Below, piece by piece: positions 12,689 to 28,227 of a stretch of DNA of 64,000 nucleotides. Source of the DNA: Vibrio gallaecicus (GTDB taxonomy: Bacteria; Pseudomonadota; Gammaproteobacteria; Enterobacterales; Vibrionaceae). A model generated the notes under the pieces. The model did not search any database, was not told where the DNA came from, and saw only the letters and a list, made by a program, of their open reading frames with translations. Position 1 is the first letter of the stretch. Every line of letters begins with the position of its first letter. The translations under genes and the position numbers were made by a program. The stretch covers positions 1,178,001 through 1,242,000 of the forward strand of contig NZ_AP025490.1 of assembly GCF_024347495.1 (NCBI RefSeq), read 5' to 3'.

Positions 12689-13969
12689 CTAAGGGCTAAC
12701 GAACTCATGCTTGAAAATGATTTGAGCTATACAACCACCAGTAGACCGATTTTTTAATTCAAAATCCCACTCGAAACGGTTACACAGGTCTTCAACCACC
12801 AGTAAACCTAGCCCGTGACCATTAGGGTTATATTGCTCTTGTAGCCCCTTTCCTTCATCTTCAATACTTATTTGAGAGTCAGTTAATGTGATGTGAACTT
12901 TGCCATTAGAAGACGTTGCCGCAATAGCATTTCTTATCAAATTGCCAATCAACATATTCATAATTGCGTCAGTTGCGTGAATGTTTGGCTCACTTTCAAT
13001 TTGTGTTAGTAGGCTTATCTCTTTCTCATTCGCCTGGGCAGAGTTTTGTTCAATAATGGCGTCAAGTTCATCCTTGGTAAAAACGCGAATGGGTGAATCA
13101 TCGCTGTTTCTTTCATAGCGAACTAAGCCTAATAAAGCATCGACCATAGTCGACATTTGAATGATTGCGTCGTCGATTCGATCAACTTGGCGGCTTTGAA
13201 AGTCGGTCATTTCACTGCGCTGTAATAGCTTATTTGCACCTCTGACTACGGTTAATGGAGTGCGTAGTTCATGGCTGGCATATCGCGCAAAAGCTTGTTC
13301 ACGTTTTACGAGCGAATTAATTTCACGGCGGTATTCATTTAATTGCTCAGTTAACTTTCTAAACTCAACTGCAGCTCCATCATTCACAGAAAACTCTTCA
13401 TTGAGATCTTGTTTATTCGTCTCAAGCTGTTCTGCTAATGAGTTGAAAGGTTCAATAAGGCGTTTAGACAAGCGATATAACAAAGCCCCAAAACTGAATG
13501 ATAAAATGGCGAAGAGAGTAAGGACTAATATACTCGAATAAATTAACTCATTGACGGAAAACTCCACCCTGTCAATTTCAGAGAGTAGCACCAGTGGGTG
13601 AGTTTCCCCTTTGTCGGAATATTCACCAATATATAGCATTCTAGAGTGAGGGTCGTCGCCCACTTCCCCGATGAAGCTATCGATACCATCAATGTATTGA
13701 TTATATGCCTTGGGAATAATCGAAAGGTCATTATAAGCGACAGTGAGAGAGTCAATTTGTATGACACTGTTATTGCTTGATCGAAAAAGTTCAATAGCCG
13801 CATTTCGATCGATCAGGATTCTTCGTTCACCTACTCTATCTTCAGAAATGTATAAAGCGGCATTAAAAATAACATAAATGAATCCGGCAATAATCACAGA
13901 CATCAATGCAAAAAATAGAGCGAGCCGCCCCGTTAAGGTTTTTGTGCTTGATACTAGATTAAGGATCAA
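12689..13969 (-). CDS. Two-component sensor histidine kinase
   Basis: Inner-membrane kinase of 426 residues. TM1 is at about 17-38 and TM2 at about 143-166, enclosing a periplasmic sensor of about 105 residues with several acidic patches. A HAMP-like linker is followed by HisKA with ASHELRTPLTVVRGA (His233), then HATPase with N box NLIRNAIAATS, DEGKGL and HGLGLLVVEDLC. The gene starts inside the regulator's stop region (4-base ATGA overlap), so the pair is translationally coupled. The divergent neighbour operon modifies cell-envelope glycolipid, making that operon the likely target; the signal is unknown. Confidence 0.93.
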   Translation of the reverse strand: MILNLVSSTKTLTGRLALFFALMSVIIAGFIYVIFNAALYISEDRVGERRILIDRNAAIELFRSSNNSVIQIDSLTVAYNDLSIIPKAYNQYIDGIDSFIGEVGDDPHSRMLYIGEYSDKGETHPLVLLSEIDRVEFSVNELIYSSILVLTLFAILSFSFGALLYRLSKRLIEPFNSLAEQLETNKQDLNEEFSVNDGAAVEFRKLTEQLNEYRREINSLVKREQAFARYASHELRTPLTVVRGANKLLQRSEMTDFQSRQVDRIDDAIIQMSTMVDALLGLVRYERNSDDSPIRVFTKDELDAIIEQNSAQANEKEISLLTQIESEPNIHATDAIMNMLIGNLIRNAIAATSSNGKVHITLTDSQISIEDEGKGLQEQYNPNGHGLGLLVVEDLCNRFEWDFELKNRSTGGCIAQIIFKHEFVSP

Positions 13970-14643
13970 TTGGGCTGCTCCAATCGGAATCCAACTTTAG
14001 GTACGGTAATCAACATTTGTTTAGCGAAAGGTTTGTCTAATTGGTTACGTAGTTGGTAGATATGGCTGCGAAGTACATCATTATTAGGTTCGTCTTCTTC
14101 CCATAATTTGTAGGAGATCTCTTCTCTAGTGACGACTTGCGGGGCGCTTTGGCATAGCATTTCTAGAATAGTGTACGTGGTTGGATTCAGAGCCAGCAAT
14201 TTATCTTGGCGATAAGCTTTTCGAGTCTTTTGGTCTATGGTTAATTCGCTAAATTGAAGCTTAGTAGAAGCGACATTTCCACGGTAGCGGCGAACCAAGG
14301 CTTTCATTCTTGCTTCAAGGATATCTAAATCAAAAGGTTTAGTGAGGTAGTCGTCGGCACCGTGATCAAAGCCTTTGAGCATGTCTTCTCGACTATCTAA
14401 AGCGGTGAGCATTAAAATGGGCGTTGCATTGCCAGCCTCACGCAATTTATTACATACCGTTAAACCATCCATCCTCGGGAGCATAAGGTCTAATATAATA
14501 ATGTCAAAAGAGTTCTCTAAAGCAAGTTGTAAACCTAGCTCGCCATTATCGGCATAATCTAATTCCATTCCGATGCATTCAAAGTAATCAAATAGTACGC
14601 CAGCAATCTCGCGGTTATCTTCAACTAACAAAACTCGTTTCAT
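13966..14643 (-). CDS. OmpR-family response regulator
   Basis: 225-residue DNA-binding regulator. The N-terminal receiver has the acidic pair VEDN, the phosphorylation site LDLMLPRMDG (Asp52), Thr in MLTALDS and Lys in YLTKPFD. The C-terminal winged-helix domain has LNPTTYTILEMLCQ, REEISYKLW and the recognition region LRSHIYQLRNQLDKPF, ending TVPKVGFRL. It is the first gene of a two-gene operon, divergent from the GtrB-like gene across 128 bases, where its binding site may lie. It resembles regulators of envelope modification in context only. Confidence 0.94.
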   Translation of the reverse strand: MKRVLLVEDNREIAGVLFDYFECIGMELDYADNGELGLQLALENSFDIIILDLMLPRMDGLTVCNKLREAGNATPILMLTALDSREDMLKGFDHGADDYLTKPFDLDILEARMKALVRRYRGNVASTKLQFSELTIDQKTRKAYRQDKLLALNPTTYTILEMLCQSAPQVVTREEISYKLWEEDEPNNDVLRSHIYQLRNQLDKPFAKQMLITVPKVGFRLEQPN

Positions 14644-14771
14644 GGATTTCTCATGTAGTAATTGACCTTACTCATCATCCTGATTGAGCGTGAAAAATAT
14701 GTCAACAACATAACTTTCATGAAGGGACCGTTATGCTATTGATAGTTTAAATAGATATAGAAGATAGCCTT

Positions 14772-15791
14772 ATGCCGAAGTTAAAAATTAGACACAATAC
14801 TATCCATAATGAGCATATAAAGCCTGCGATTTCCTTATCCATCATCGTTCCTTTTTTTAATGAAGAAGAAGTACTCGGTGAGTTTCATTCACGTTTAACT
14901 TCGGTGCTAGATGGCTTAGAAGAGAACTGTGAAATTGTTTATATCGATGATGGGAGTACCGATAAAAGCTTAGCATTGGTTGAAAGTTTTAAGTCGGTGA
15001 ATAGCGCTATATCGGTTATTGGATTAAGTCGAAATTTTGGTAAAGAAGCGGCGATGAGTGCAGGTTTGGAGCACTGTCGTGGGCAAGCGATCATTTTATT
15101 GGATGCGGATCTTCAAGATCCCCCCGAGTTGATTCCTGAAATGATGGCAAAATGGCGTGAAGGCTATGATGTCGTCAATATGCAGCGTAAAGAGCGCAAT
15201 GGCGAAACTTGGTTCAAAAAATTCTCAGCAGCAAGCTTTTATCGAGTAATGAATATACTCGTTAAAATAGATGTGCCGGAAAATGTGGGTGACTTTCGCT
15301 TATTAAGCCGTGAAGTTGTGGATCACATAAACCAGCTTCCAGAACGTAATCGTTACATGAAAGGCATTTTCTCTTGGCCTGGGTTTAGGCAAACCACTAT
15401 TCAATTTAAACGAGATGCTCGTTTTTGTGGTGAAACTAAATGGAACTATTTGAAGTTGGTTGGCTTAGCGATGGACGGCATCACTTCTTTCTCTATTCGC
15501 CCGCTTCGTATCGCTTCTGTGGTTGGTGGCTTAGTTGCTTTAAGTGCCTTTGTTTACGGCATGTTTATCGTTTTTAAAACCATGATGTTTGGTGAAGCCA
15601 TTTCTGGTTACCCTTCAATGATGGTCGTGCAATTGGCGTTAGGTGGTATTCAACTTTTAAGCATTGGGCTTTTAGGGGAATACATCGGGCGTATTTTCAT
15701 TGAAACCAAAGGTCGTCCTTTGTACTTAATCCAATCCGTTGCCGACAAACCAGCATTAAAAAACAGTTTGATACTTGAGGAATCAGCATGA
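14772..15791 (+). CDS. GtrB/ArnC-type polyprenyl-phosphate glycosyltransferase
   Basis: Membrane-bound GT2 enzyme that loads a sugar from a nucleotide donor onto undecaprenyl phosphate. The GT2 domain is complete: LSIIVPFFNEEEVLGEF, IDDGSTDKSL, LSRNFGKEAAMSAGLEH, the metal-binding LLDADLQDPPEL and GDFRLLSREVV. Two TM helices follow (about 245-268 and 283-305), then the GEYIGRIFIETKGRPLY tail typical of DPMS/ArnC/GtrB. At 339 residues it is full length. Overlap with the next gene by 4 bases indicates one transcript. The sugar could be glucose, 4-amino-arabinose or another; sequence alone does not decide. Confidence 0.92.
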   Translation: MPKLKIRHNTIHNEHIKPAISLSIIVPFFNEEEVLGEFHSRLTSVLDGLEENCEIVYIDDGSTDKSLALVESFKSVNSAISVIGLSRNFGKEAAMSAGLEHCRGQAIILLDADLQDPPELIPEMMAKWREGYDVVNMQRKERNGETWFKKFSAASFYRVMNILVKIDVPENVGDFRLLSREVVDHINQLPERNRYMKGIFSWPGFRQTTIQFKRDARFCGETKWNYLKLVGLAMDGITSFSIRPLRIASVVGGLVALSAFVYGMFIVFKTMMFGEAISGYPSMMVVQLALGGIQLLSIGLLGEYIGRIFIETKGRPLYLIQSVADKPALKNSLILEESA

Positions 15792-17269
15792 GCTTCAGCT
15801 TAAATAGAACTCACTTATGGAGCTTACTTGCCTTTGCTCTTTTACTTAGGCTGATCTCGTTAGCCACATACCCGTTAATGGACACAACTGAAGCACGCTA
15901 CGGTGAAATGGCTCGGTTGATGGTTGAAACCGGTAATTGGCTAACACCACAATTTGATTACGGCATCCCTTTTTGGGGTAAGCCGCCATTGTTTACTTGG
16001 ATGAGTGCTGTAGGCATTGAATTGTTTGGGCTAAATGAATTTGCTGTTCGTGCCCCACATTGGCTTGCAGGCGTAATGACTATTGGCATTATTGCTTATA
16101 TGGCGAAAAGAACAGGGCAAAGTGCTTTGGTTGCCTGCGTGGTATTAGCAACCTGCGGAATTTTCTCGATTGCGGCAGGTGCCGTGATGACAGACATGGC
16201 GCTGACATTGGCAATGACCATGGCTATGGTTGGTTTTTACTTCTGTTGGAAAGGCGATGGTAGCGATAAAACCAATAAACTTTGGGGTTACCTTGGATTT
16301 GTTGGGCTAGCGTGTGGCTTGCTAGCTAAAGGTCCGGTAGCGGTCGTGATTATGGGCATTGCTGTTTTTCCATGGTTAGTATTGCAGCACGGTTTAATTG
16401 GCGCGTTTGTTCAGTTATGGAAGCGTTTTCCTATTGTTTCGGGCATCGTTATTATGCTGGTTATCGCATTACCTTGGTACATTATGGCTGAAGCTGCAAC
16501 ACCGGGCTTTATCGATTACTTTATTATAGGTGAGCACTTTAAGCGCTTTGTTGTGAGCGGTTGGGAAGGGGATTTATACGGCTCGGCTCATGATGAGACA
16601 AGAGGAATGATTTGGGTATTCTGGATTCAATCTGCAGCGCCTTGGTCTATTGTGTTGCCTATCTTGGCGTTCGTGCGAAGAGATAAAGTAAAGCTGGCGA
16701 ACTCAGAGCATCCCGGGCTATTTTCATTTTTGATTTGCTGGTTAATCTCGCCGCTAATTCTGTTCACTATGGCTGGCAATATTTTACCTGCTTATGTTTT
16801 ACCTGGTATTCCGGCTTTAGGCTTACTGATAGCAATGTTGGTGGTAGAAAAAGATAAGAAGTGGTTCTCTAGTGTTGCTCTTATTCTGCCAGTGATATTA
16901 ATGATTGCTATGTTGCTTTTGAACTTGGGCAAAGCCAACCAGAAAAGTGACCGCGTTATTTTTGAACATATTGTAGATGATGCACCAAGCTTTTACATTG
17001 GCTCTCGTCCTTTCTCCGGACAATTTTATAGCCAAGGGCAAGCAAAGAAACTGATGGATATAAACCAACTAAACGATGTTTCAAAATACTATTTAATTGG
17101 TAAAAAATTGGAAGTTGAAGCGGGTATCCGTGACCATGCATTGACTTGTGTTTTAGAGCCAACCCCAGAAGCGAAACGTGTTCTGTTTACCTGTACGAAT
17201 ACTGGTGTGCAAGGTGAATTAGTGACTCAGTTAAATAAAGATACAACCATGGCTTTAAATGAACAGTAA
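15788..17269 (+). CDS. ArnT-like (PMT/GT39-83 family) glycosyltransferase
   Basis: Polytopic enzyme that transfers a sugar from a lipid-phosphate donor to an envelope acceptor on the periplasmic face. The catalytic first loop is present: PLMDTTEARYGEMARLMVETGNW then WGKPPLFTW, as in ArnT. About ten to twelve hydrophobic segments follow, then a soluble C-terminal part from about residue 385. Length is 493, somewhat shorter than ArnT (about 550). It is sandwiched between GtrB-like and GtrA-like genes with overlaps of 4 and 11 bases, an arrangement for glycosylating lipid A, O-antigen or another surface glycan. No aminoarabinose biosynthesis genes (arnABD) are present here, so the sugar may differ. 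Confidence 0.88.
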   Translation: MSFSLNRTHLWSLLAFALLLRLISLATYPLMDTTEARYGEMARLMVETGNWLTPQFDYGIPFWGKPPLFTWMSAVGIELFGLNEFAVRAPHWLAGVMTIGIIAYMAKRTGQSALVACVVLATCGIFSIAAGAVMTDMALTLAMTMAMVGFYFCWKGDGSDKTNKLWGYLGFVGLACGLLAKGPVAVVIMGIAVFPWLVLQHGLIGAFVQLWKRFPIVSGIVIMLVIALPWYIMAEAATPGFIDYFIIGEHFKRFVVSGWEGDLYGSAHDETRGMIWVFWIQSAAPWSIVLPILAFVRRDKVKLANSEHPGLFSFLICWLISPLILFTMAGNILPAYVLPGIPALGLLIAMLVVEKDKKWFSSVALILPVILMIAMLLLNLGKANQKSDRVIFEHIVDDAPSFYIGSRPFSGQFYSQGQAKKLMDINQLNDVSKYYLIGKKLEVEAGIRDHALTCVLEPTPEAKRVLFTCTNTGVQGELVTQLNKDTTMALNEQ

Positions 17270-17654
17270 AATCGTTAAGTTTGCCCTTGTTGGTGCTGGT
17301 GGCTTTGTCGTCGATTGCACTGCTTTTGCCATACTGCATTATTGGATCGGTTTACCTTTGATGTGGGCAAGAGGAGGGGCATTTATTGTTGCCGCAACCA
17401 GCACTTGGTTTGGAAATCGAGTGCTGACTTTTGAATATAAAGGTAACGGTTCATGGAGAGATAACGTAAAGCAATGGCAAAAATTCATGCTGTCAGCGTC
17501 TTTTTCCGCGGTACCCAACTTAGTGTGCTTTAAAGTGGTTAGCGGACTATTACCTACTTTTACTGGTGTAATGTTTATCGCGATGGCTATCGGAGTTTTA
17601 GTCGGAATGGTGAGTAATTATCTTCTCAGCCAGTATTGGGTTTTTGCTCGCTAA
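17259..17654 (+). CDS. GtrA family membrane protein
   Basis: 131-residue protein with four TM helices. It matches GtrA in FALVGAGGFVVDCTAFAILHY, WFGNRVLTFEYKG and VGMVSNYLLSQYWVF. GtrA proteins are thought to flip the lipid-linked sugar made by GtrB across the inner membrane. It starts 11 bases inside the ArnT-like gene, so all three proteins likely work together. It is the last gene of the operon, and a long hairpin follows. Confidence 0.92.
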   Translation: MNSKIVKFALVGAGGFVVDCTAFAILHYWIGLPLMWARGGAFIVAATSTWFGNRVLTFEYKGNGSWRDNVKQWQKFMLSASFSAVPNLVCFKVVSGLLPTFTGVMFIAMAIGVLVGMVSNYLLSQYWVFAR

Positions 17655-17782: not shown

Positions 17783-18418
17783 ATGAATAACACCACATTG
17801 CCCATATTATTGAGATCTATTTGTGTATTGGGCATCGTTTCTTTTGTAACGCTATTCTTATGTTTTGGGGCCGTACCACAAGTTTTAGCTGCAAGCCTAA
17901 CCATCGCGGTTTTAGGCGGCTTTCTTGTTACATATTTTCAAATACAACCCCGTACCTTACCTTCTGACGAACTCTACCAAGTCCTCTTTTCCGTTAATAA
18001 CGTTCTACTCCCTAAACTTGTTCGACAACTTGATTATTCTTGCCAAGACTCATCCAATTCCGTCGATCAACTAGCCTCTCTTTTCAAACAACTATCCGAT
18101 CAATCCAACAAAATTTGTGGGCTTTTATCATCACAAGAATTAACGGTAGAGCAATGCCAACGCGCCACAGAAAAAGTTAAAAAAATTCATAATAAAATCA
18201 TCTTACTTCTTCAATTTGGAGATAGAACTCAACAAATGCAATCTGGTGTTTTAGAGGCGTTGCATTTAATCAGCAGCCAAGTTGAAGCTGTATTAGATGA
18301 CCCCAGTAAAACCAATACCTATTTTGATGAAAAGAACTTACTAGAAGCGATAGATAAAATTGAATCAAGAACAAGCAGCCACGAAGAAGTACGTAGAGAT
18401 GATGTAACTTTCTTTTAA
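17783..18418 (+). CDS. Membrane-anchored protein with CheZ-like D-x-x-x-Q motif, first gene of chemosensory operon
   Basis: 211 residues from the ATG at 17783 (a TTG sits just before it). Two hydrophobic segments lie at about 9-31 and 35-50, forming a hairpin anchor; the rest is cytoplasmic and predicted helical. The segment LQFGDRTQQMQSGV carries Asp147 and Gln151 in the D-x-T-x-Q spacing that CheZ uses (QDLTGQ) to dephosphorylate CheY-P. The C-terminus is charged and ends in DVTFF. It lies 41 bases before a CheY gene, so a membrane-tethered phosphatase for that CheY is a reasonable inference. Overall similarity to CheZ is not evident by eye, and a structural or scaffolding role is possible. 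Confidence 0.6.
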   Translation: MNNTTLPILLRSICVLGIVSFVTLFLCFGAVPQVLAASLTIAVLGGFLVTYFQIQPRTLPSDELYQVLFSVNNVLLPKLVRQLDYSCQDSSNSVDQLASLFKQLSDQSNKICGLLSSQELTVEQCQRATEKVKKIHNKIILLLQFGDRTQQMQSGVLEALHLISSQVEAVLDDPSKTNTYFDEKNLLEAIDKIESRTSSHEEVRRDDVTFF

Positions 18419-18459: not shown

Positions 18460-18828
18460 ATGAACAAAACAATACTGATTGTCGATGATTCAGAATCACT
18501 GAGGCAAGTTGTCAGCATCGCTTTAGTTGGTGCTGGTTACAATGTGATAGAAGCTAAAGATGGGCTAGATGGTTTAGCGAAATTAGATGGTACTAAAGTT
18601 CATTTAATTATTAGTGACGTCAATATGCCGAACATGAATGGTATTGATTTTGTAGAAGCAGTTAAAGAGCTCGCCAAGTATAAATTTACCCCCATTATTA
18701 TGCTCACTACTGAAAACCAACCTTATTTGATGGAGGAAAGCCGCAAAGCTGGTGCAAAAGCGTGGTTAGCAAAACCTTTTAGACCAGATCAAATGCTGCA
18801 AGCTGTATCGAAAATATTAGAGTCGTAG
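18460..18828 (+). CDS. CheY-like single-domain response regulator
   Basis: 122-residue receiver without output domain. Acidic pair DD near residues 8-9 (IVDDSES), phosphorylation Asp53 in IISDVNMPNMNG, Thr in MLTTENQ and Lys in WLAKPF are all present. It should be phosphorylated by the CheA encoded two genes downstream. It follows GGGGTTAAGG and precedes the STAS gene by nine bases. The sequence cannot tell whether it acts on a flagellar switch or another target, but no motility gene is nearby. Confidence 0.94.
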   Translation: MNKTILIVDDSESLRQVVSIALVGAGYNVIEAKDGLDGLAKLDGTKVHLIISDVNMPNMNGIDFVEAVKELAKYKFTPIIMLTTENQPYLMEESRKAGAKAWLAKPFRPDQMLQAVSKILES

Positions 18829-18837
18829 GGAGGGGAA

Positions 18838-19119
18838 ATGCCAGGAAATTATACCTATATATTGCCCGACGAATTCACCATTTACGAAGCCTCGGAAGTT
18901 TATTGCGATATCAGCGAACAACTGAATACTCATGGTCAATGTCAGATTGATGGTTCAAGAGTCGAAGAAGTCGATACGGCAGGTATTCAAATCTTGTGTA
19001 AGTTTCTTCATGATAAAAGTTTGAAGAATATTTCCCTTGTGGAGCCAAGTGCACGATTGCAAAGTGCATTTTCACTGCTGGGTCTTGAGTCGATGAGTAC
19101 GCCAAACCATGACGAATGA
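18838..19119 (+). CDS. STAS domain protein
   Basis: 93-residue single STAS domain similar to anti-sigma-factor antagonists and MlaB. The characteristic loop is GSRVEEVDTAGIQILCKFL, where Thr sits at the position usually held by the phosphorylatable Ser (DSSG). GGGAGGGG provides a good ribosome site. The gene overlaps cheA by 11 bases. STAS proteins occur in alternative chemosensory operons, where a partner-switch or array-docking role is possible; neither is demonstrated here. Confidence 0.88.
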   Translation: MPGNYTYILPDEFTIYEASEVYCDISEQLNTHGQCQIDGSRVEEVDTAGIQILCKFLHDKSLKNISLVEPSARLQSAFSLLGLESMSTPNHDE

Positions 19120-21373
19120 ACTTCAAGCGGCGCTCAGTACATTCGTTAATGAAGCTCGTGAATTGTTGGTGGATTTAGAGCAAGCATTACTTGAAGTTGA
19201 CGGGCTAGGGCAAGAACCTAAGTCGGACAAAATTAACTCGATGTTTCGCTCTATTCATACGATTAAAGGGAGCGCGGGCTTATTTGGCTTGGATGAAATA
19301 GTCGAAATTAGTCACCGATACGAAACGATTTTGGAGCAGGTTAGAGACCAAAACCGGTCTTTAACTCAAGAACTTATCGACTTGGGTTTGAAAGTCTGTG
19401 ACGTTTTAACTGATCTTATAAACTTCATTGGTAAGCCAATAGAAGGTGAAATCCAACAGCGTTATCTGAATTTATACGTAGAACTTGATAAGCATTGCCC
19501 TCGAGTCAGTTCGAATGCAAAAGCAGATTCAAACAATCAATTGAGTAGTCATCGCTCCCTTGGCACTTCCCTTCAGCTTGCACAATCTTGGCATATATCA
19601 TTCAGACCCTATCCTAAAGTATTTCAAGATGGGCTAGACCCCAAAGCTTTTGTTCGATTTTTGAGTCAAATTGGTACGATTGAAGCAATCGCTGTGGTTG
19701 ATGATGGTTTATTTCCATCTGCTGAACATGACGATTCTCCGTCATTAGAGTCTTTTCAATCAGAAGAATTTGACCCGGAAATTTGTTATTTGGGGTTTGA
19801 AATCCAGCTAAGTACATCGGCAACTCAGCAAGAGATTGAAGATGTGTTTGAGTTCATACAGCAAGATGCTGACATTCAGATAATTCCCCCAGACAGCGAT
19901 GTCAAAACGTATATAGAGCTGATCAATCACCTTCCTGAATCGAATCAAAAGTTAGGTGAGATACTGGTTCATTGTGGGGCTTTGACTGCTCATGAATTGT
20001 CGCAAGGGTTAGTGCAACAAGAGAAGCATAAGGCACAAGAAACGAGTCATGAAACTGCCGTGAATCATGAAGTTGAAGGCGGTATTGATAGCAAGTTATC
20101 TATATCACCTTCTGAAAACATATTGACCCAAGCTGCCATTACTAATCAACACAACAAAATTCATAACAATAAAACGCTAAGAGTTGAAGCCGATAAGCTA
20201 GACAAGTTAATTGATCAAGTGGGTGAAATTGTCATTACTGGTGCCAGAACCACTTTACTAGCCCATGAAACGGGCAATGAAGACTTGATTGAAACCATCG
20301 TTCAATTGGAGCGGTTAGTTGAAAATATCAGAGATAGCTCATTACAACTGAGGATGGTTCAGGTCGGAGATACCTTTAATAAATTTAAGCGGATTGTGCG
20401 TGATGTGGCTTTATCTGTCGGAAAACAAGTGACATTGCAGATCAATGGCGCGGAGACAGAATTAGACAAAACCTTCATCGAAAAACTCAGTGACCCTTTA
20501 ACCCATATTATTCGCAACGCTATCGATCACGGTATAGAACCACCAGAACAAAGAGTTCTCATGGGTAAGCCAGAAATAGGGACTATTTCATTAAATGCTT
20601 ATCATGATTCGGGTTCGATTGTGATTGAAGTTCTGGATGACGGTAGAGGTTTAGATAAAGAACGGGTGATCGCTCAAGCGATTGAACAGGAGTTAATCAC
20701 CAAGGCGAATCACTTAAATGAAAGAGATATATTTGCTCTCATTTTCGAACCAGGTTTTTCAACATCAGAGCAAGTGACCAATTTATCTGGTCGCGGCGTG
20801 GGCATGGATGTCGTGAAACGGAACATCGAGCAGCTTCGTGGCAATGTTGAAGTGATCAGTGAGCCTAATTTAGGAACGCAAGTCACCATACGCTTGCCTC
20901 TGACTCTGTCGATTATTGACGGCTTCCTATTTGAAATAGCAGGGACAAGTTATGTCATCCCACTTGATAACGTCGTCGAATGTTTAGAGCTTCATGAAGT
21001 TGCTCCTGATGATGTGCATGAGGGGAGAAATTTCATAGACCTTCGTGGGGAAGTACTGCCTTTTTTACGGCTTCGGGAATGGTTCGGAGCTGAAGATGAG
21101 GTCAATCACTCTCAAGAATCTTTAGTCATTGTGCAATTTGGAACACTCAGAGCGGGGTTAGTTGTCGACTCATTGCTTGGTGAATTTCAAACCGTGATTA
21201 AACCACTGGGCCGCTTATTTGAAGGTCTTAAAGGCGTTAGCGGCGCCACAATTTTAGGTAATGGCGTTGTTGCCATTATTTTAGATGTATTTTCTCTCAT
21301 TCAATCAGCGGTTAGCCGACAAGAGCTTGATTGCCTTGAAAAAAATATGGATAGCGACGAGCAAGGAGCATAG
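19109..21373 (+). CDS. cheA: Chemotaxis histidine kinase CheA
   Basis: 754-residue kinase. P1 HPt domain with [13 protein letters not shown] (His50). Residues about 155-275 form an extra alpha/beta region in place of a standard P2 ([28 protein letters not shown]). Residues about 280-305 ([20 protein letters not shown]) resemble the short helical motif seen in CheA proteins of alternative systems and in MshEN-type domains. Then P3 dimerisation (about 350-415), P4 kinase with [24 protein letters not shown] and [15 protein letters not shown], and P5 CheW-like domain to the end. It is translationally linked to the STAS gene upstream and sits two bases before the MCP gene. Confidence 0.95.
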
Positions 21374-21375
21374 CA

Positions 21376-23400
21376 ATGCTAAATAAATTATCCATCAAGA
21401 ATAAAATAATTCTCGCCATGCTTACCATGGGGGCGTTATTTCTCATTATTGCGATTTCGGTTCAAGTGAAGAACCGAGCTATTGAAGGCTATGCAATAAG
21501 CGTTGGGAGCTACGACATTCCTGAGGCGATCTTATCTTTGGCAATGCTTGATGAGTTGGGAGATATGAACTCAAATGTATTGGAGTTCATCACCGGTGAA
21601 GCAGAAGAAAAAGAAGATTTTAGAGCAAATCACACCGAACTCATTACTTTTTTTGAAGAGCTTAAACAGCTTCAAACCGTTGATGCTGTCTCTATGAGAC
21701 AACTCGAAGAGCTTTCAGAGCGGTATTTTACAGATGCACAGTCGCTGGTCTTCAATGTGTTTGACCCCACTAGAGAGCAGCAAGCCGCAGATAAATATGA
21801 CTACCTGATAGAAGAGTTTGCGATTCCGTTGGAGCGCCTACTCGATACATTAAAAGAAGAGGAAGTGGCTGATGCTGGTAGCTCAGGCAGTTTTGAGGAA
21901 GTCGTGAAAGATGATCTGCAAGGGGTTAGGTATTACCTTGAGTTAATCGATGAGCAAGGTGACATGATGTCGGCGTTAAATGCCTACATGAGAGGAGAGA
22001 CGGGGGCCGTTAATCAATTTGAGCGGGAAGCGAGAAACTTTGCAGATTTCCTCAAAGAAATTAAACCGTTGGAGCGCCGCCCAGAAGAAATTCAGAGCCT
22101 CGCTGAAGTAGAAAGAATGTATGAAGAGTTGTATAGCGGAGGCCGGGATATCTTTGCGACATATAATCCAAGAGACAAAATTAATGCCGCAATTGAAATC
22201 GATAAATTGGAGCATGAAGTCTTCAATAAATTGGAAGATATTTTAGAGAGCATCAACAACAATGCGAGTGACCAAAGTAACCAATCCTTAGATGAACTTA
22301 TTACTGCGGCTCGTGACAGTATTTCTTTGGTGTGGGGGCTGTTAGTAGCCGCAGTATTGCTGGCAATTGCAACTGCTTTGTTTTTGATTAGAGGCATTGT
22401 TATGCCAATTAAAGCCTTAGCAGAAGCGGCAGAAGATTTACGTTCTGGGGAGGGGGATTTAACAAGACGAATTCCTGATTTTGGACAAGATGAAATTGGT
22501 GAAACAGCAAAAAGCTTTAATGGGTTTATTGAGCGTTTACAAAATATTTTGCTAGATATTCAAGCATCAGTTGAAGCCATTGCTCACAGTACTAATGAGG
22601 TGAGTACCACTTCTAAAATGTTGAGCTCTACCTCCAACCAACTGGCCACCAGTGTGGAAGAAACCAGTGCTTCTCTTGATCAAATGAGCTCTTCAATATC
22701 AATGAATACGGATAATTCCAAAGTAACGAATGGTATTGCAACTCAGTCGAGCGCAGAAGCTCATGACGGCGGACAAGCAGTAAATGATACGGTCAATGCA
22801 ATGACGGAAATTGCGCAAAAGATTGGAATTATTGAAGATATTGCCTACAAAACTAATCTATTAGCACTGAATGCAGCTATAGAAGCGGCACGGGCTGGTG
22901 AACACGGTAAAGGCTTTGCCGTCGTGGCAGATGAAGTTAGAAAACTTGCAGAAAGAAGCCAAGTTGCAGCCCAGGAAATCAGTACATTAGCGGACAACAG
23001 TGTGAAAGTGGCACAACATGCTGGAGACATGTTGAATCGAATGGTACCGAACATTCAAAAAACTGCAGACTTAGTTCAAGAAATTACAGCCGCATCTACA
23101 GAGCAAAGTACAAGTGTTGCTGAAATCAACCGAACAGTTTCTCAGCTTGACGATATTGCTCAACAAAATGCGTCGGCGTCTGAAGAATTGGCATCAACTG
23201 CCATCATGGTACAAGAGCAAACTGGTGAAATTCGTAAGACGGTTAATTTCTTCAAGCTTAAAAAAGCCGACCCGTATTCCCAAAGTCGACATAATCAATC
23301 TGGACCTCTTAATTACAGTCATACGCGGAACGATATTATTCAGCCAGCAGAGAAGAAAAACATGAAACATGTCGATGGTTTTATCCCATTTGATGATTAA
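21376..23400 (+). CDS. Methyl-accepting chemotaxis protein
   Basis: 674-residue transducer. TM1 at about 9-29, a long helical periplasmic sensor (about 30-313, rich in Glu, Leu and Asp, suggesting a four-helix or HBM-like bundle), TM2 at about 314-337, HAMP (about 338-390), then the signalling domain. The conserved tip reads [18 protein letters not shown] and [19 protein letters not shown]. The C-terminus ends DGFIPFDD and lacks a CheR-docking pentapeptide of the NWETF kind. It is the only receptor gene in the operon, so it is the likely dedicated input. Its ligand cannot be read from the sequence. Confidence 0.95.
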
Positions 23401-23448: not shown

Positions 23449-23991
23449 ATGAGATTGAGTGGCTTAAGAGTAGAACCGACAGATAAGAGCACGGTTGTTG
23501 AAAGCGAGAAATACTTAGAGTTTAAAGTGGATGGAAAACTATTCGCTTATAACATTAATAAGGTCGCTGAAATTATGGAGTTTCCGGAAATTGAATCTAT
23601 CCCTCTGTCTCCAGGTTTTCTCTTAGGAGCGATAAATCTAAGAGGCGATGTCATTCCAATAATCGACTTAGCGATTTGCTTGAATCGGGTCTCAACCCCA
23701 GTGACTGCGAAAACGTGTGTGGTTATTTCAGATGTGGATTATCAAGGTACCGTCTATAAAGTAGGGAATAAAGTCGATATCGTCACTCGTGTTATGGATA
23801 TTGAAACAGTCCAAATAGATAAAGCGCCCGATCTCGCGGGTCAATTGGAACATCGAGTACTGGTTGGAGTTGCTAAGTTAGATAACCGACTATTATCAAT
23901 CCTTAATGTCGATTCATTAATGACTCATGCTCAGCTGGATTGGTTAAAGGAATCTCAGTTCTGCGATGAACAAAATTTGGCACAGTTATAG
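23449..23991 (+). CDS. cheW: CheW-like coupling protein 1
   Basis: 180-residue CheW domain that would bridge the MCP and CheA P5. Features are YLEFKVDGKLFAYNINKVAEIME, IPLSPGFLLGAINLRGDVIPIIDLA and the closing GVAKLDNRLLSILNVD. About 20 residues precede the domain. It lies 48 bases after the MCP gene. It is one of two different CheW genes in tandem; sequence identity between the two is low, so they may bind different interfaces. Confidence 0.93.
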   Translation: MRLSGLRVEPTDKSTVVESEKYLEFKVDGKLFAYNINKVAEIMEFPEIESIPLSPGFLLGAINLRGDVIPIIDLAICLNRVSTPVTAKTCVVISDVDYQGTVYKVGNKVDIVTRVMDIETVQIDKAPDLAGQLEHRVLVGVAKLDNRLLSILNVDSLMTHAQLDWLKESQFCDEQNLAQL

Positions 23992-24008: not shown

Positions 24009-24569
24009 GTGAATCAAGCCAGTTCGGAACAAGAGGCAATGGAAGATGCCCATTCAATAAGTGCCTGCTTATTAGTAGATATTGGTGGTGAAGTCTTTGG
24101 TATTTCAGTCGGTAGTGTCAAAGAAGTGATTGAATTCGAATCGATCACTACAGTACCAATGTGCTCTGGCAAAGATGGAAACGGCATTGTGAGTGGTGTC
24201 ATTAACGTAAGAGGCAGCGTAGTACCTGTTATTGATGCTGGAAAGCGTTTAGGGCTACAGCATGAGAAAGCTTACGATAAATATAGCTGCATTGTCTTGT
24301 ACGAAAGTTACGATGAAGCCAGTAATGTGGTGGTGACTGTAGGTATTTTAGTTAATCGAGTAAAAGCAATTGAAGGTTTAGCACAAGAGGCCTTAACCGA
24401 TGCTCCCTATTTTGGTGTGCATATTCCTGCTCACTTTGTCTCAACAATGGCGCGTATAGAAGATCAGGTATTTATCATTTTAGATATGCCCGTTTTACTG
24501 AATTTATCTTCAATTAACCAAGACATCTTGTCGAATCAGAAGCAACTCTTTAACCAACTTTTGAGTTGA
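24009..24569 (+). CDS. cheW: CheW-like coupling protein 2
   Basis: 186-residue CheW domain beginning with GTG at 24009, preceded by GGGAGAG. Features are CLLVDIGGEVFGISVGSVKEVIEF, GIVSGVINVRGSVVPVIDAGKRLG and ARIEDQVFIILDMPVLL. It follows the first cheW by 17 bases. Two distinct CheW paralogues in one operon are common in alternative chemosensory clusters. Confidence 0.92.
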   Translation: MNQASSEQEAMEDAHSISACLLVDIGGEVFGISVGSVKEVIEFESITTVPMCSGKDGNGIVSGVINVRGSVVPVIDAGKRLGLQHEKAYDKYSCIVLYESYDEASNVVVTVGILVNRVKAIEGLAQEALTDAPYFGVHIPAHFVSTMARIEDQVFIILDMPVLLNLSSINQDILSNQKQLFNQLLS

Positions 24570-24707: not shown

Positions 24708-25523
24708 ATGACTGAACTGAGTGATTCTGGCTTCAAGCATATTCAACGCTTATTTGAAAACCACACAGGTATTCAATTAGCGGACCATAAAAAAATGGCA
24801 GTTGCGAACCGGTTATTTGGTAGATTAAATCACTTTAATTTTGACGATTTTGGTGATTACCTGAGTTTGTTAGATCAAACATCACACCAGCGAGAACTTC
24901 AAATTTTCATCGATAAACTCACAACGCATGAAACCTATTTTTTTAGAGAAAAAGACCAATTTGATTGGTTAGAAGAACACCTTTCCCAATATAAAAATCA
25001 AGAACCATCCCATACCATATCGATTTGGAGCGCAGCATGCTCAAGCGGAGAGGAAGTCTACAGTCTAGCGATGATACTCCATGCAAACCTAGGAGGTGAC
25101 GGTTGGAATGTGTTTGGAAATGATATTTCAGAAGTGGCGATTCAAACCGCTCAGGTTGCTAACTACCCCATTAAAAAAGCGCAACGAATTCCTAAACCTT
25201 ATCGAAATGCTTACTGTTTAAAGGGGGTGGGTGAATTCGAAGGGAAATTTACCCTGTGCGAAGAGATCAAGCGGCGTTGTATGTTCACCTCTCACAACTT
25301 ACTTCAATTCGACCAAGAAACATCGATTAAATTTGACATTATCTTTCTACGGAATGTGCTCATCTATTTCACACCGATGAAACAAAAAGAAATCGTGGAT
25401 AAGGTGATCGATAGGCTCAGTTTCGGCGGGCATTTATTTTTAGGGCACAGTGAAAATATTGTTCGTGACCATAGCGAACTTGAGCAGGTTGAACGCTGTA
25501 TTTATAAGAAGGTTTCTCTATGA
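24708..25523 (+). CDS. cheR: Chemoreceptor glutamate methyltransferase CheR
   Basis: 271-residue S-adenosylmethionine-dependent enzyme that methylates receptor glutamates. The N-terminal helical domain is followed by THETYFFREKDQF, the SAM site SIWSAACSSGEEVYSLAMIL, FGNDISEVAIQTA, and FDIIFLRNVLIYFTPMKQKEIVDKV. No TPR extension is present. It overlaps cheB by 4 bases (ATGA). Confidence 0.95.
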   Translation: MTELSDSGFKHIQRLFENHTGIQLADHKKMAVANRLFGRLNHFNFDDFGDYLSLLDQTSHQRELQIFIDKLTTHETYFFREKDQFDWLEEHLSQYKNQEPSHTISIWSAACSSGEEVYSLAMILHANLGGDGWNVFGNDISEVAIQTAQVANYPIKKAQRIPKPYRNAYCLKGVGEFEGKFTLCEEIKRRCMFTSHNLLQFDQETSIKFDIIFLRNVLIYFTPMKQKEIVDKVIDRLSFGGHLFLGHSENIVRDHSELEQVERCIYKKVSL

Positions 25524-26593
25524 CGATTAATGTTTTTATTGTTGATGATTCAGCCGTAATAAGGCAGGTATTAGGTGAAGTGGTGGATGCTGACCCTGAC
25601 CTTAAATTAATAGGGGTAGCGCCAGATCCTGTTCTTGCTATTCGAAAAATGAATAAGCATATGCCAGATGTCATTTTACTTGATATCGAAATGCCAAAAA
25701 TGGATGGCATAACTTTTCTTAAAAAGGTAATGACTGAGCACCCAATTCCCGTTGTTATTCTATCTGCTCTTACTGAATCTAACCCTGACTTGTGTTTAGA
25801 AGCGTTATCTTCAGGGGCGGTAGAGGTTGTGAATAAACCCTCGAGCAATTTGAGTCATTACCTTCAGTCTTCTGAAATTAAAGGGCTTTTAAGTGGAATT
25901 AAACGGGCCGCAAAAATGAAGGTTCGCCCTGTTAGATACCTTGGGGAGGCGAGTTTCAGAAAACGTTATTCAGCAGATGTGATTATTGAACAGGAGCGTC
26001 ATCATCAATCGGTCAAAACTGATGAAGTGATCGTTGTTGGAGCTTCAACTGGCGGTACAGATGCGATAGAAAAGCTCCTCATGGGTATGCCACCAGGAAG
26101 CCCGCCAATAGTGATAGTGCAGCACATGCCAGGAAAGTTTACGAATGCTTTTGCTCAACGGTTAAACACAGTGCTACAGCATCGAGTTGTAGAAGCTGAA
26201 AACCGTCAGAAGCTGGTGGCAGGATCGGTCTATATTGCACCTGGTGACGTACATACTATGATTAGTAGAGTAGAACAAACCTACTTTATTGAACTTAAGG
26301 ATGGTCCTCTTGTAAGCCGTCACAAGCCTTCAGTTGATGTTCTGTTTCGTTCAGCTGCACAACATGTTGGTGAAAATTGTATTGGGGTCATTATGACAGG
26401 AATGGGGGATGACGGAGCTCAGGGAATGGTGGAGTTAAAAAGAGTAGGGGCTTACACGCTAGCTCAGAGTGAAGACAGTTGTTTGGTATTTGGGATGCCA
26501 AAAGAAGCGATTGCTAAAGGGGGCGTTGATAAAGTCTGTTCACTGCAGAACTTGCCTTACCATATTCAAAAAACGATGGTGGGCAATGCATGA
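25520..26593 (+). CDS. cheB: Chemoreceptor methylesterase/deamidase CheB
   Basis: 357-residue enzyme with a receiver domain (VDDSAV, LLDIEMPKMDG with Asp55, then ILSALTE and a Lys in NKPSSN) joined to the methylesterase. The catalytic triad positions are visible as GASTGGTDA (Ser176), VQHMPGKFT (His202) and the Asp region GMGDDGAQGM. It opposes CheR and is activated by CheA. It overlaps cheR upstream and the EAL gene downstream, both by 4 bases. Confidence 0.95.
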   Translation: MTINVFIVDDSAVIRQVLGEVVDADPDLKLIGVAPDPVLAIRKMNKHMPDVILLDIEMPKMDGITFLKKVMTEHPIPVVILSALTESNPDLCLEALSSGAVEVVNKPSSNLSHYLQSSEIKGLLSGIKRAAKMKVRPVRYLGEASFRKRYSADVIIEQERHHQSVKTDEVIVVGASTGGTDAIEKLLMGMPPGSPPIVIVQHMPGKFTNAFAQRLNTVLQHRVVEAENRQKLVAGSVYIAPGDVHTMISRVEQTYFIELKDGPLVSRHKPSVDVLFRSAAQHVGENCIGVIMTGMGDDGAQGMVELKRVGAYTLAQSEDSCLVFGMPKEAIAKGGVDKVCSLQNLPYHIQKTMVGNA

Positions 26594-28227
26594 CATATTC
26601 TAACCAAGCAATAGAGTCACTAGGGCTCATTAATATCATTATTAATGAACAAGGTTATATCAGTGATTTGTCTGAACAGGCCGCTGAACTATTTCGAATG
26701 GAAATGGGTGACAATATATTTTCAGCTTGTCCGATAGAATTTCTCGATGAACATTACCAACCATACCCCTGCATTGATAACCTGTGCGAAAAAATTGCTA
26801 AGCAAACTAGTGAGTGCACACTTACTCCCTATGATTTTGAATGTGGGTTAAGTTACCCAGATCGCAATGTCGTTTGGCTTAAAATACACGTTGTAGTTCG
26901 AGAGTCCTCTTTGGTTTTACACTGCAGTGATATTGGAGAACTCGTTGCAGCAAGGCGTTTGAATCGTCAACTATCAATACAAGATCCGCATACAGGCCTA
27001 CTGTATCGAGAAGCTTTTTTAACGAAGATTAAAGAAGAAAACCGACACGGAACCGTATGTTGTGTTCGAATATGCAATTACCAAAGGATTAATGAAATTT
27101 GGGGGGCTGCAGTTGCTAACCTAGTGTTTATGGAAATTTTAGCGCGAGCCTATACCGAAACGAATAATGCGATTTGCAGTAAGCATTCCACAGACAGCTT
27201 CATTGTGTTTGTTCCCAGTGAAGACTCCTTAGATATTGAACATTTCTACTCGTTATTGAATGAGCCTTTCCATTTTAACGGGCGTCACTTTTTCAGTAAT
27301 GTTGCCCTTGGCTATTATCAAGAAAAGCCCTCTGATGAACACGAGCAAAGCTTGAATAAAGCTGAAATGGCAATCTTAGATGTATCTGCCGAAAGAATCA
27401 GGTTAGCTGAATTTCAAGAAGATCTGGCTAAGCAAATTGAACATCAAAATAACCTAGAAATGGAATTTAGGTCTGCAATTAATGATGATTTTAATAAACA
27501 TTTTCATACCACTTTCCAACCTATCCATTGCTCTCAAACTGGCAAGGTTGTCGGGGGAGAGTGTCTGATTCGCTGGGTACTTAATGGCAAGATGGTTTCA
27601 CCCGTAGAGTTTATTCCTATTTCGGAAAAAACCGGAGATATAGGTTTGCTGACTCAGTTTAACATTCGCCAACTAGGTGAAATGGTCAGAGAGCTGGAGA
27701 ATAAAGGAATAGATACTTCGAAGTATTTGTTTGCTTTAAACATCAGCGTGGTTGAGATCCTTGACGTAGATTTTGTAGATAAGCTAACAGAATGCATAAA
27801 GCTAAATGGGTTGGTGTCGGAGCAGGTAAAGCTTGAACTGACTGAGTCGGCATTAATTGATAATTTCAATTACGTGAATCTGGTTCTAGAACAGGTACAA
27901 GATCTTGGCTTTAGAGTCTCGATTGACGACTTTGGAACCGGTTTTTCGAGCTTAAGTTACTTATGTCGATTAAGGTTTGATGAAATCAAGATCGACCGAG
28001 AGTTTGTCACGAACGTCGTTAGTGATAGTAAGCTTCAAACCGTTTTTAACTCGATTGCGTCTTTAGCCACAAACTTGAATAAACCTGTGGTAGCGGAAGG
28101 GGTCGAGACCTTAGAGCAGCTGATTTATGCCCAAGCGAAAGGGATTGAGTATATTCAAGGGTATTATTTCAGTAAGCCTCTACAAAAAGATGACTATATT
28201 TCTCACTTGATGAGTAATCAGATTTAG
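26590..28227 (+). CDS. c-di-GMP phosphodiesterase: PAS-like, degenerate GGDEF, EAL
   Basis: 545-residue cytosolic protein. An N-terminal PAS-like region (about 10-115) precedes a GGDEF fold whose active-site loop reads STDSF (200-204), so cyclase activity is unlikely. The EAL domain has Glu324 in ECLIRW, LNISV, LELTES, SIDDFGTGFSSL, EIKIDREFV, VVAEGVE and IQGYYFSKP, so the metal-binding and catalytic positions are intact. It is predicted to hydrolyse c-di-GMP. ATGA overlap with cheB makes it part of the chemosensory operon and suggests receptor signalling feeds into c-di-GMP. Confidence 0.9.
   Translation: MTYSNQAIESLGLINIIINEQGYISDLSEQAAELFRMEMGDNIFSACPIEFLDEHYQPYPCIDNLCEKIAKQTSECTLTPYDFECGLSYPDRNVVWLKIHVVVRESSLVLHCSDIGELVAARRLNRQLSIQDPHTGLLYREAFLTKIKEENRHGTVCCVRICNYQRINEIWGAAVANLVFMEILARAYTETNNAICSKHSTDSFIVFVPSEDSLDIEHFYSLLNEPFHFNGRHFFSNVALGYYQEKPSDEHEQSLNKAEMAILDVSAERIRLAEFQEDLAKQIEHQNNLEMEFRSAINDDFNKHFHTTFQPIHCSQTGKVVGGECLIRWVLNGKMVSPVEFIPISEKTGDIGLLTQFNIRQLGEMVRELENKGIDTSKYLFALNISVVEILDVDFVDKLTECIKLNGLVSEQVKLELTESALIDNFNYVNLVLEQVQDLGFRVSIDDFGTGFSSLSYLCRLRFDEIKIDREFVTNVVSDSKLQTVFNSIASLATNLNKPVVAEGVETLEQLIYAQAKGIEYIQGYYFSKPLQKDDYISHLMSNQI

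Follow-up and report, generated by a model that had tools for sequence, protein, structure and literature searches.

A membrane-anchored, receptor-like protein with a CheZ-like D-x-x-x-Q motif at the head of a Vibrio gallaecicus chemosensory cluster

P0001 and its chemosensory cluster

Judged by profile comparison, P0001, a protein of Vibrio gallaecicus, belongs with receptor-like proteins but lacks their MCP signalling hairpin. We consider it somewhat probable that it acts as a membrane-tethered CheZ-like phosphatase for the phosphorylated CheY (CheY-P) of its own cluster, that is, as a receptor stalk without the kinase-control tip. Its gene lies in a window of 64,000 nucleotides (the whole stretch of DNA that was analysed), where it heads a cluster of the order CheY-STAS-CheA-MCP-CheW-CheW-CheR-CheB-EAL. 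The features of the protein and of the cluster are as follows.

17783..18418, + strand: P0001, membrane-anchored CheZ-like protein, 211 aa (ORF, stop included)
17795..17938, + strand: predicted TM hairpin, residues about 5-52 (AlphaFold2 helices 5-28 and 32-52; hydrophobicity scan, 13-31 only)
17966..18298, + strand: predicted long cytoplasmic helical hairpin, residues 62-172, receptor-stalk equivalent (model; hhalign to the flanks of the MCP hairpin of fused relatives)
18209..18235, + strand: LQFGDRTQQ, residues 143-151, with Asp147/Gln151 as CheZ-like active-site candidates (conservation)
18404..18415, + strand: C-terminal VTFF, residues 208-211, candidate docking peptide (conservation; lost in 4/4 orphans)
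18460..18828, + strand: CheY, presumed substrate, with Asn at D+2 and Glu at T+2 (PF00072, 7.4e-26; sequence)
18838..19119, + strand: STAS protein (PF13466, 1.8e-10)
19109..21373, + strand: CheA kinase (Hpt, H-kinase_dim, HATPase_c, CheW)
21376..23400, + strand: chemoreceptor, MCP (HAMP and MCPsignal)
23449..23991, + strand: CheW (PF01584)
24009..24569, + strand: second CheW (PF01584)
24708..25523, + strand: CheR (PF01739)
25520..26593, + strand: CheB (PF01339 and PF00072)
26590..28227, + strand: EAL protein, GGDEF part below cut-off (PF00563, 3.8e-62)

The initial annotation had described an open reading frame at 17783-18418 encoding a hydrophobic hairpin and, in a helical cytoplasmic part, LQFGDRTQQ, with a gap of 41 bases to cheY (18460), and each of these elements was confirmed. 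The AlphaFold2 model, built with 21 sequences (mean pLDDT 79.5, pTM 0.53), contains helices at residues 5-28, 32-52, 62-116, 122-172, 174-180 and 183-197; Asp147 falls within the second long helix of the hairpin 62-116/122-172 of this monomer, and the tail at residues 200-211, which ends in DDVTFF, is of low confidence. At its threshold the hydrophobicity scan marked residues 13-31 only, so that the evidence for the two-helix membrane hairpin of P0001 comes chiefly from the model and the sequence; two or more segments, overlapping in several rows, were marked in 11 of the 20 other rows of the short-form alignment. P0001 matched no Pfam or NCBIfam family above cut-off, and Pfam gave no PF00015 match at E<=1, so the MCP signalling hairpin is not present. 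No terminator was found by the scan on the strand of the gene between it and cheY, and the promoter scan of the P0001 gene returned one site, on the opposite strand, with 4.4 expected by chance.

E. coli CheY likewise carries Asn at D+2 and Glu at T+2. A canonical CheZ is encoded elsewhere in the host genome. Residues 278-304 of the CheA match, weakly and below cut-off, an MshE-type c-di-GMP-binding motif (NF053729, E 0.0053), which together with the EAL protein at the cluster end hints at a c-di-GMP link of the cluster. The upstream region 12689-17654, read by eye, contains a two-component pair, a glycosyltransferase, an ArnT-like membrane protein and a GtrA-like protein, and looks like an envelope-modification operon.

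Conservation within Vibrio and loss outside the cluster

Homologues of P0001 were found by profile search in 23 of the 227 genomes of the genus, and cheY directly follows the gene in 19 of these 23 (17 by pattern; L018, where the pattern search listed another ORF; and the gene of the window itself). An earlier search of 61 genomes of the genus had given matches in six, one of which (L006; MCP match, E 9.7e-4) is by eye an ordinary receptor and was set aside as a homologue; in the database search with the 6-row alignment, 8000 candidates were scored.

Two near-duplicates, P0002 and P0004, were excluded from the conservation counts of che-linked sequences and from the comparison with orphans; the Fisher values calculated with these counts take no account of kinship among the sequences. 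Identity to P0001 is 20-32% in 16 of the 18 other che-linked sequences, and 85% and 57% in the remaining two. Five of 194 scored columns are invariant in all 19 che-linked sequences: P77, Q144, D147, Q151 and F211. Poor conservation of the Asp/Gln pair among orthologues had been named in the initial annotation as speaking against its proposal; the pair is in fact invariant (19/19). Since both residues are kept in 19 mostly 20-32% identical sequences, LQFGDRTQQ is not a chance occurrence. Nearly as conserved in the che-linked set is the C-terminal motif [VIM]-[TI]-[FYV]-F (F211 in 19/19, T209 in 18/19, V208 in 16/19), which the initial annotation missed together with the receptor-like kinship of the protein and its lack of a direct profile link to CheZ.

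In four genomes (orphans L020, L023, L025 and L026) the gene is located between genes that by eye are serC-like and radical-SAM-like, with no cheY. The Asp at position 147 and the C-terminal VT[FY]F are lost in all four orphans, while Gln151 is lost in two and kept in two; in the protein tree the orphan state needs two changes, and thus at least two separate losses. At the level of sequence, the strict conservation of a few residues and the loss of the Asp and the C-terminal motif from genes without the cluster indicate selection tied to the cluster. The orphan gene persists as an open frame and possibly has a new role.

The profile of the STAS protein matched 147 of the 227 genus genomes at E<=1e-5, mostly in other cluster types. 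The best matches in the orphan genomes are 1.7e-10 to 4.4e-12, and those in cluster-bearing genomes 1.8e-17 or better; the latter level was reached in 21 genomes, 19 with the gene plus G115 and G220, which have CheY-STAS-CheA without a P0001-type gene (2 of 21 related clusters). At L126 and L127, clusters of the same CheA clade without the gene, CheY contains SDFNMP instead of SDVNMP. In another genome (G036, loci L008 and L119) about 35 kb separates cheY from the STAS gene, which is adjoined by a phage-repressor-like ORF; a mobile element seems to have entered the chemosensory cluster there.

Receptor-like relatives carry the missing hairpin

Outside the genus, the profile of the 21 short forms gave matches at E<=0.1, many of them weak, in 42 of 295 genomes of the order and 31 of 274 genomes of the class. 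We read 36 loci from these matches, 28 of which entered the fused, soluble or F7-type sets, picked by eye. The fused set (A3) comprises 14 proteins of 373-416 residues with a TM hairpin, an MCP signalling hairpin, the motif LQFQDRxSQIL and a C-terminal ITFF/IEFF or similar. Directly downstream of 11 of the 14 lies cheY; in two (L047 and L053) the next ORF is CheB-like, and at L041 no cheY was seen.

In hhalign comparisons the short form matched both the C-terminal part of the fused proteins (95.8%, E 8e-9, an alignment that pairs both Asp/Gln and the terminal motif) and their N-terminal part (96.0%, E 5e-9), and the MCP hairpin at 0.6% only; reversed controls of the positive pairs of the short form reached at most 5.04%. 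Because both flanks are matched and the hairpin is not, P0001 comprises both flanks of a receptor stalk but lacks the tip. With the receptor-like proteins of about 400 aa from Pseudomonas syringae and Aeromonas it has in common the TM hairpin, the stalk flanks, D-x-x-x-Q, the C-terminal motif and the position before cheY, but it is without their MCP signalling hairpin and reads FGD where they read FQD. The initial annotation knew of no established name for the protein. The full-text literature available to us, in part and largely without subscription journals, likewise contained no description of a P0001-type protein or of receptor-embedded CheZ-like sites, and the available portions of texts on Campylobacter CheO and Halomonas and of a V. 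cholerae review contained nothing on such a protein; it can nonetheless be identified as a receptor-like protein without the MCP hairpin.

Searched against named genomes, the fused C-terminal alignment matched at least 588 stretches. The best 80 of these at least 588 belong to Aeromonas, Pseudomonas including P. syringae, two Sulfuricellaceae and one unplaced proteobacterium; cheY is directly downstream in 80/80, the MCP pattern is present in 79/80 and the protein ends in FF in 79/80, figures that come from the best matches and not from a random sample. Fused loci were retrieved by the pattern QFQDR..QI, and a set of 38 fused members (A7) was composed of 27 from 94 passing the motif filter and 11 of the 14 A3 proteins. 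The invariance of the Asp and Gln in A3, A7 and the 80 loci is thus partly by construction, since members were picked by eye or by motif. In a phylum sample of 299 genomes, the fused C-terminal profile had matches at E<=1e-5 in 32; P0001 itself is not matched by the fused profile at E<=1e-5. Within the genus, the fused form was present at 5 of 30 STAS loci.

In a midpoint-rooted CheA tree of 45 rows with long branches, fused clusters (support 82/79) lie beside short clusters including two without the gene (support 100/99), and four CheA of another type are placed across a long branch, among them that of L130, where the order is STAS-CheY-CheA. We take the hairpin to have been lost in Vibrio, not gained elsewhere, because the fused form is the more widespread of the two. 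In the part of PMC11253619 available to us, the P. syringae receptor PSPTO_0912 and CheR PSPTO_0910 belong to the F8 cluster. On the basis of this partial source, and with locus tags unmatched, the P. syringae cluster found here (L190) is probably the F8 system of that organism, and via L190 we infer the F8 class for the P0001-type cluster.

An F7-like cluster of the host and a soluble D-x-x-x-Q family

The host genome also contains an F7-like cluster (L268), in which we recognised by eye STAS, CheY, CheA, CheW, CheW, a long receptor ending in EWEEF, CheR, CheD, CheB, a 389-residue receptor, STAS and a phosphatase. As far as the accessible part of PMC7184735 goes, this is the gene order given for stage 1 F7 systems, and with stage 1 or 2 F7 systems only F6 systems include cheZ. 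The shorter receptor is the following.

L268:11853-13022: McpA-like receptor of the host F7-like cluster, 389 residues, LQFADIVSQ ... EVELF end

It resembles P0001 in the C-terminal module and, unlike P0001, retains the MCP hairpin and lies between CheB and the STAS/phosphatase genes. Among the 36 loci read, three receptors with LQFGDINGQ adjoin STAS genes. By hhalign, the C-terminal part of the F7-type receptors (that of L268, L038, L042 and L044) matched the fused proteins (93%, E 3e-7) and the short form (94%, E 1e-7). Of the four F7-type rows, three had themselves been retrieved with the short-form profile. The match of this part to the soluble family is weak (38%), and that of the F7-type receptors to CheZ (0.4%) is below the reversed control (4.4%). 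The CheD-like protein of the same cluster (L268:10121-10744) ends in DDVELF, which resembles the ends of the receptor-like and soluble D-x-x-x-Q proteins, and a docking peptide shared between them is possible.

The soluble family (L032-L037, L043, L046, L060, L061 and L064) consists of 11 proteins of 172-235 aa with AFQFYDRLSQR ... DDIELF. It matches the short form by hhalign (96.5%, E 1e-9), D-x-x-x-Q and the C-terminal motif being common to both, and gives 0.1% against CheZ. The hydrophobicity scan marked no TM segment in the family, the four members scanned had no Pfam family over cut-off, and in the 3.3 kb read a che gene was seen only near L064 (a CheV-like ORF, by eye). We regard this family as a candidate stand-alone CheZ-like protein. 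At L069:1423-1935 a 170-residue protein with RLQFADRLKQ is encoded among ORFs that by eye are CheW-like and CheR-like; it may be a soluble D-x-x-x-Q protein that forms part of a che cluster.

Comparison with CheZ

By sequence, P0001 is not a member of the CheZ family. Pfam CheZ (PF04344) did not match it at E<=1, the HMM-HMM comparison suggested in the initial annotation gave 0.2% for the short form against CheZ, and PDB sequence searches with P0001 or its alignment returned no CheZ chain. With Pfam, NCBIfam, hhalign and PDB sequence searches empty, direct membership was rejected.

Among the relatives of P0001, the fused proteins, and only they, are measurably related to CheZ as judged from profiles. 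Their C-terminal part aligned with CheZ by hhalign at 83% (E 9e-6) with Asp/Gln in register, the reversed controls giving 0.1 and 0.4%; the corresponding profile recovered no CheZ chain from PDB sequences at E<=10. At E<=1 Pfam CheZ matches 19 of the 38 fused proteins (best 4e-5) and is their most frequent family after MCPsignal, with inspected scores under the cut-off, but this signal is weak alone because PUB10_N, an unrelated helical family, matches 11 of the 38 as well (best 3.5e-4). The CheZ HMM scored more than 5 bits in 36/38 fused and 2/21 short forms (median of the latter, 1.7 bits), and in 0/11 soluble, 0/3 F7-type and 0/30 ordinary MCP proteins. In the reverse search the median best-domain bits were 19.1 for 18 CheZ, 27.4 for 11 soluble, 14.2 for 21 short and 9.2 for 3 F7-type proteins, compared with 0.8 (best 8.5) for 30 ordinary MCPs. 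The CheZ set was 18 of 29 loci, kept by the pattern F.D.TGQ, and the MCP control was 30 of 41 MCP matches in the host genome.

F-Q-D-x-x-x-Q is common to CheZ and the fused family. The available part of PMC7750401 gives AxxFQ and DxxxQ as the motifs of CheZ, the Gln before the Asp being the most conserved residue. In the short forms this position is Gly, Ser, Ala or Phe, and P0001 reads LLQFG, not A-x-x-F-Q. The CheZ sequences end in DD/DELLSSLGF (17/18) or DTLLSQLGF (one), and P0001 has no VDDLLSSLGF-type end. The layout of the two proteins is comparable: E. coli CheZ is described, again in the accessible part of PMC7750401, as an N-terminal helix, a hairpin at 35-168, a linker and a C-terminal helix, and P0001 has D-x-x-x-Q in the second helix of a long hairpin, followed by a linker and a C-terminal motif. 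The hairpin is 111 residues long in the model of P0001, against 134 in E. coli CheZ (PMC7750401, seen in part). Unlike CheZ, a soluble CheY-P phosphatase that P0001 is proposed to resemble in acting on CheY, P0001 has a TM hairpin in place of the N-terminal helix, no Gln before the Asp and no direct profile match. The model has the long hairpin with Asp/Gln in its second helix, as described for CheZ. In structural searches with the model, generic helical hairpins fill both lists, and CheZ is not among the 50 matches shown in either. Thus the CheZ-like reading retains the Asp/Gln pair of 19/19 che-linked sequences, the hairpin layout and the match of relatives to CheZ, and loses direct membership in the family.

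CheC, CheX and FliY, for which the outcome would be the same as proposed for P0001 (CheY-P removal), have a different, alpha/beta fold. A relation to CheC or CheX, also raised in the initial annotation, finds no support in P0001, which has no Pfam match and an all-helical model. In the consulted part of PMC3510030 the motif of these proteins is of the ExxN type; for DxxxQ the same source reports coordination of the attacking water in CheZ, a requirement for the phosphatase activity of NarX, and a role in both as a response-regulator dephosphorylation motif.

Discussion

We favour a phosphatase role for P0001 because of the part that DxxxQ plays in CheZ and NarX and because the cluster CheY has Asn at D+2 and Glu at T+2. 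We count in the same direction the invariance of D147/Q151, the losses in orphans, the receptor-like relatives with their match to CheZ, and the adjacency of cheY. On the other side we count the absence of direct CheZ similarity, the fact that only the fused family reaches CheZ, the PUB10_N matches, the missing Gln before the Asp, the missing CheZ C-terminal end, the generic fold matches, the two of 21 clusters without the gene, and the Gln kept in two of four orphans.

P0001 belongs to a receptor-like family with a TM hairpin, an antiparallel helical stalk carrying D-x-x-x-Q in its returning helix, an MCP signalling hairpin and a short hydrophobic motif at the C-terminus. According to the mechanism that we propose, the absence of the MCP hairpin from P0001 should prevent it from engaging CheA or CheW. 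The stalk would dimerise against the membrane into a four-helix bundle, as CheZ does in solution, and the attacking water would be positioned by Asp147 and Gln151, inserted into the active site of CheY-P. A partner, possibly CheY, may dock at the VT[FY]F end, and CheY-P would be drained at the inner membrane beside the array.

The main rival, to which we assign a clearly lower probability, is a stalk that binds CheY without catalysis: P0001 would be a membrane anchor or a CheY sink, and D147, Q151 and VTFF would bind CheY or another array protein without hydrolysis. The receptor relatives and the lack of a direct CheZ match are consistent with such a scaffold, as is the C-terminal Phe, which is conserved as strictly as the Asp. 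In view of the similar DDVELF end of the CheD-like protein in the F7-like cluster of the same genome, the tail may also have a binding partner that is not CheY and is common to both proteins. Against the scaffold stand the identity of the invariant residues with the catalytic pair of CheZ, at the spacing of CheZ, and the alignment of the fused relatives with CheZ in this same register.

It is unlikely that P0001 is an adaptation helper in which VTFF does the work of a receptor pentapeptide, bringing CheR, CheB or CheD to the membrane. The pentapeptide of receptors has an aromatic second position and VTFF has none; moreover, 1-12 residues follow the motif in 6 of 21 short-form rows (one a near-duplicate), so that it need not be terminal, and invariant D147/Q151 would be left unexplained. 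What speaks for recruitment is that C-terminal pentapeptides on receptors bind CheR/CheB (PMC7390727, available in part), that the cluster's own MCP ends in PFDD and that the long receptor of the F7-like cluster ends in EWEEF. Least probable is a decaying receptor remnant with no function, for although the gene is absent from 2/21 clusters, cluster-less in four genomes and otherwise very divergent, a few residues are strictly conserved at mostly 20-32% identity and the Asp and C-terminal motif are lost with the cluster, pointing to selection tied to it.

To return to a phosphatase function, we suggest very tentatively, as a picture that may well prove wrong, that F7 and F8 arrays carry their phosphatase inside a receptor-like protein, that the tip is missing in one Vibrio lineage, leaving a free-standing membrane phosphatase, and that CheZ may descend from such a stalk. 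P0001 and its receptor-like relatives provide a concrete, testable candidate for signal termination in such arrays, with two residues to change. If the proposal is true, some proteins with an MCP signalling domain would also be phosphatases, a single polypeptide could, through the D-x-x-x-Q in its stalk, remove CheY-P at the base as well as controlling CheA at the tip, and an origin of CheZ from a receptor-like four-helix bundle would become testable.
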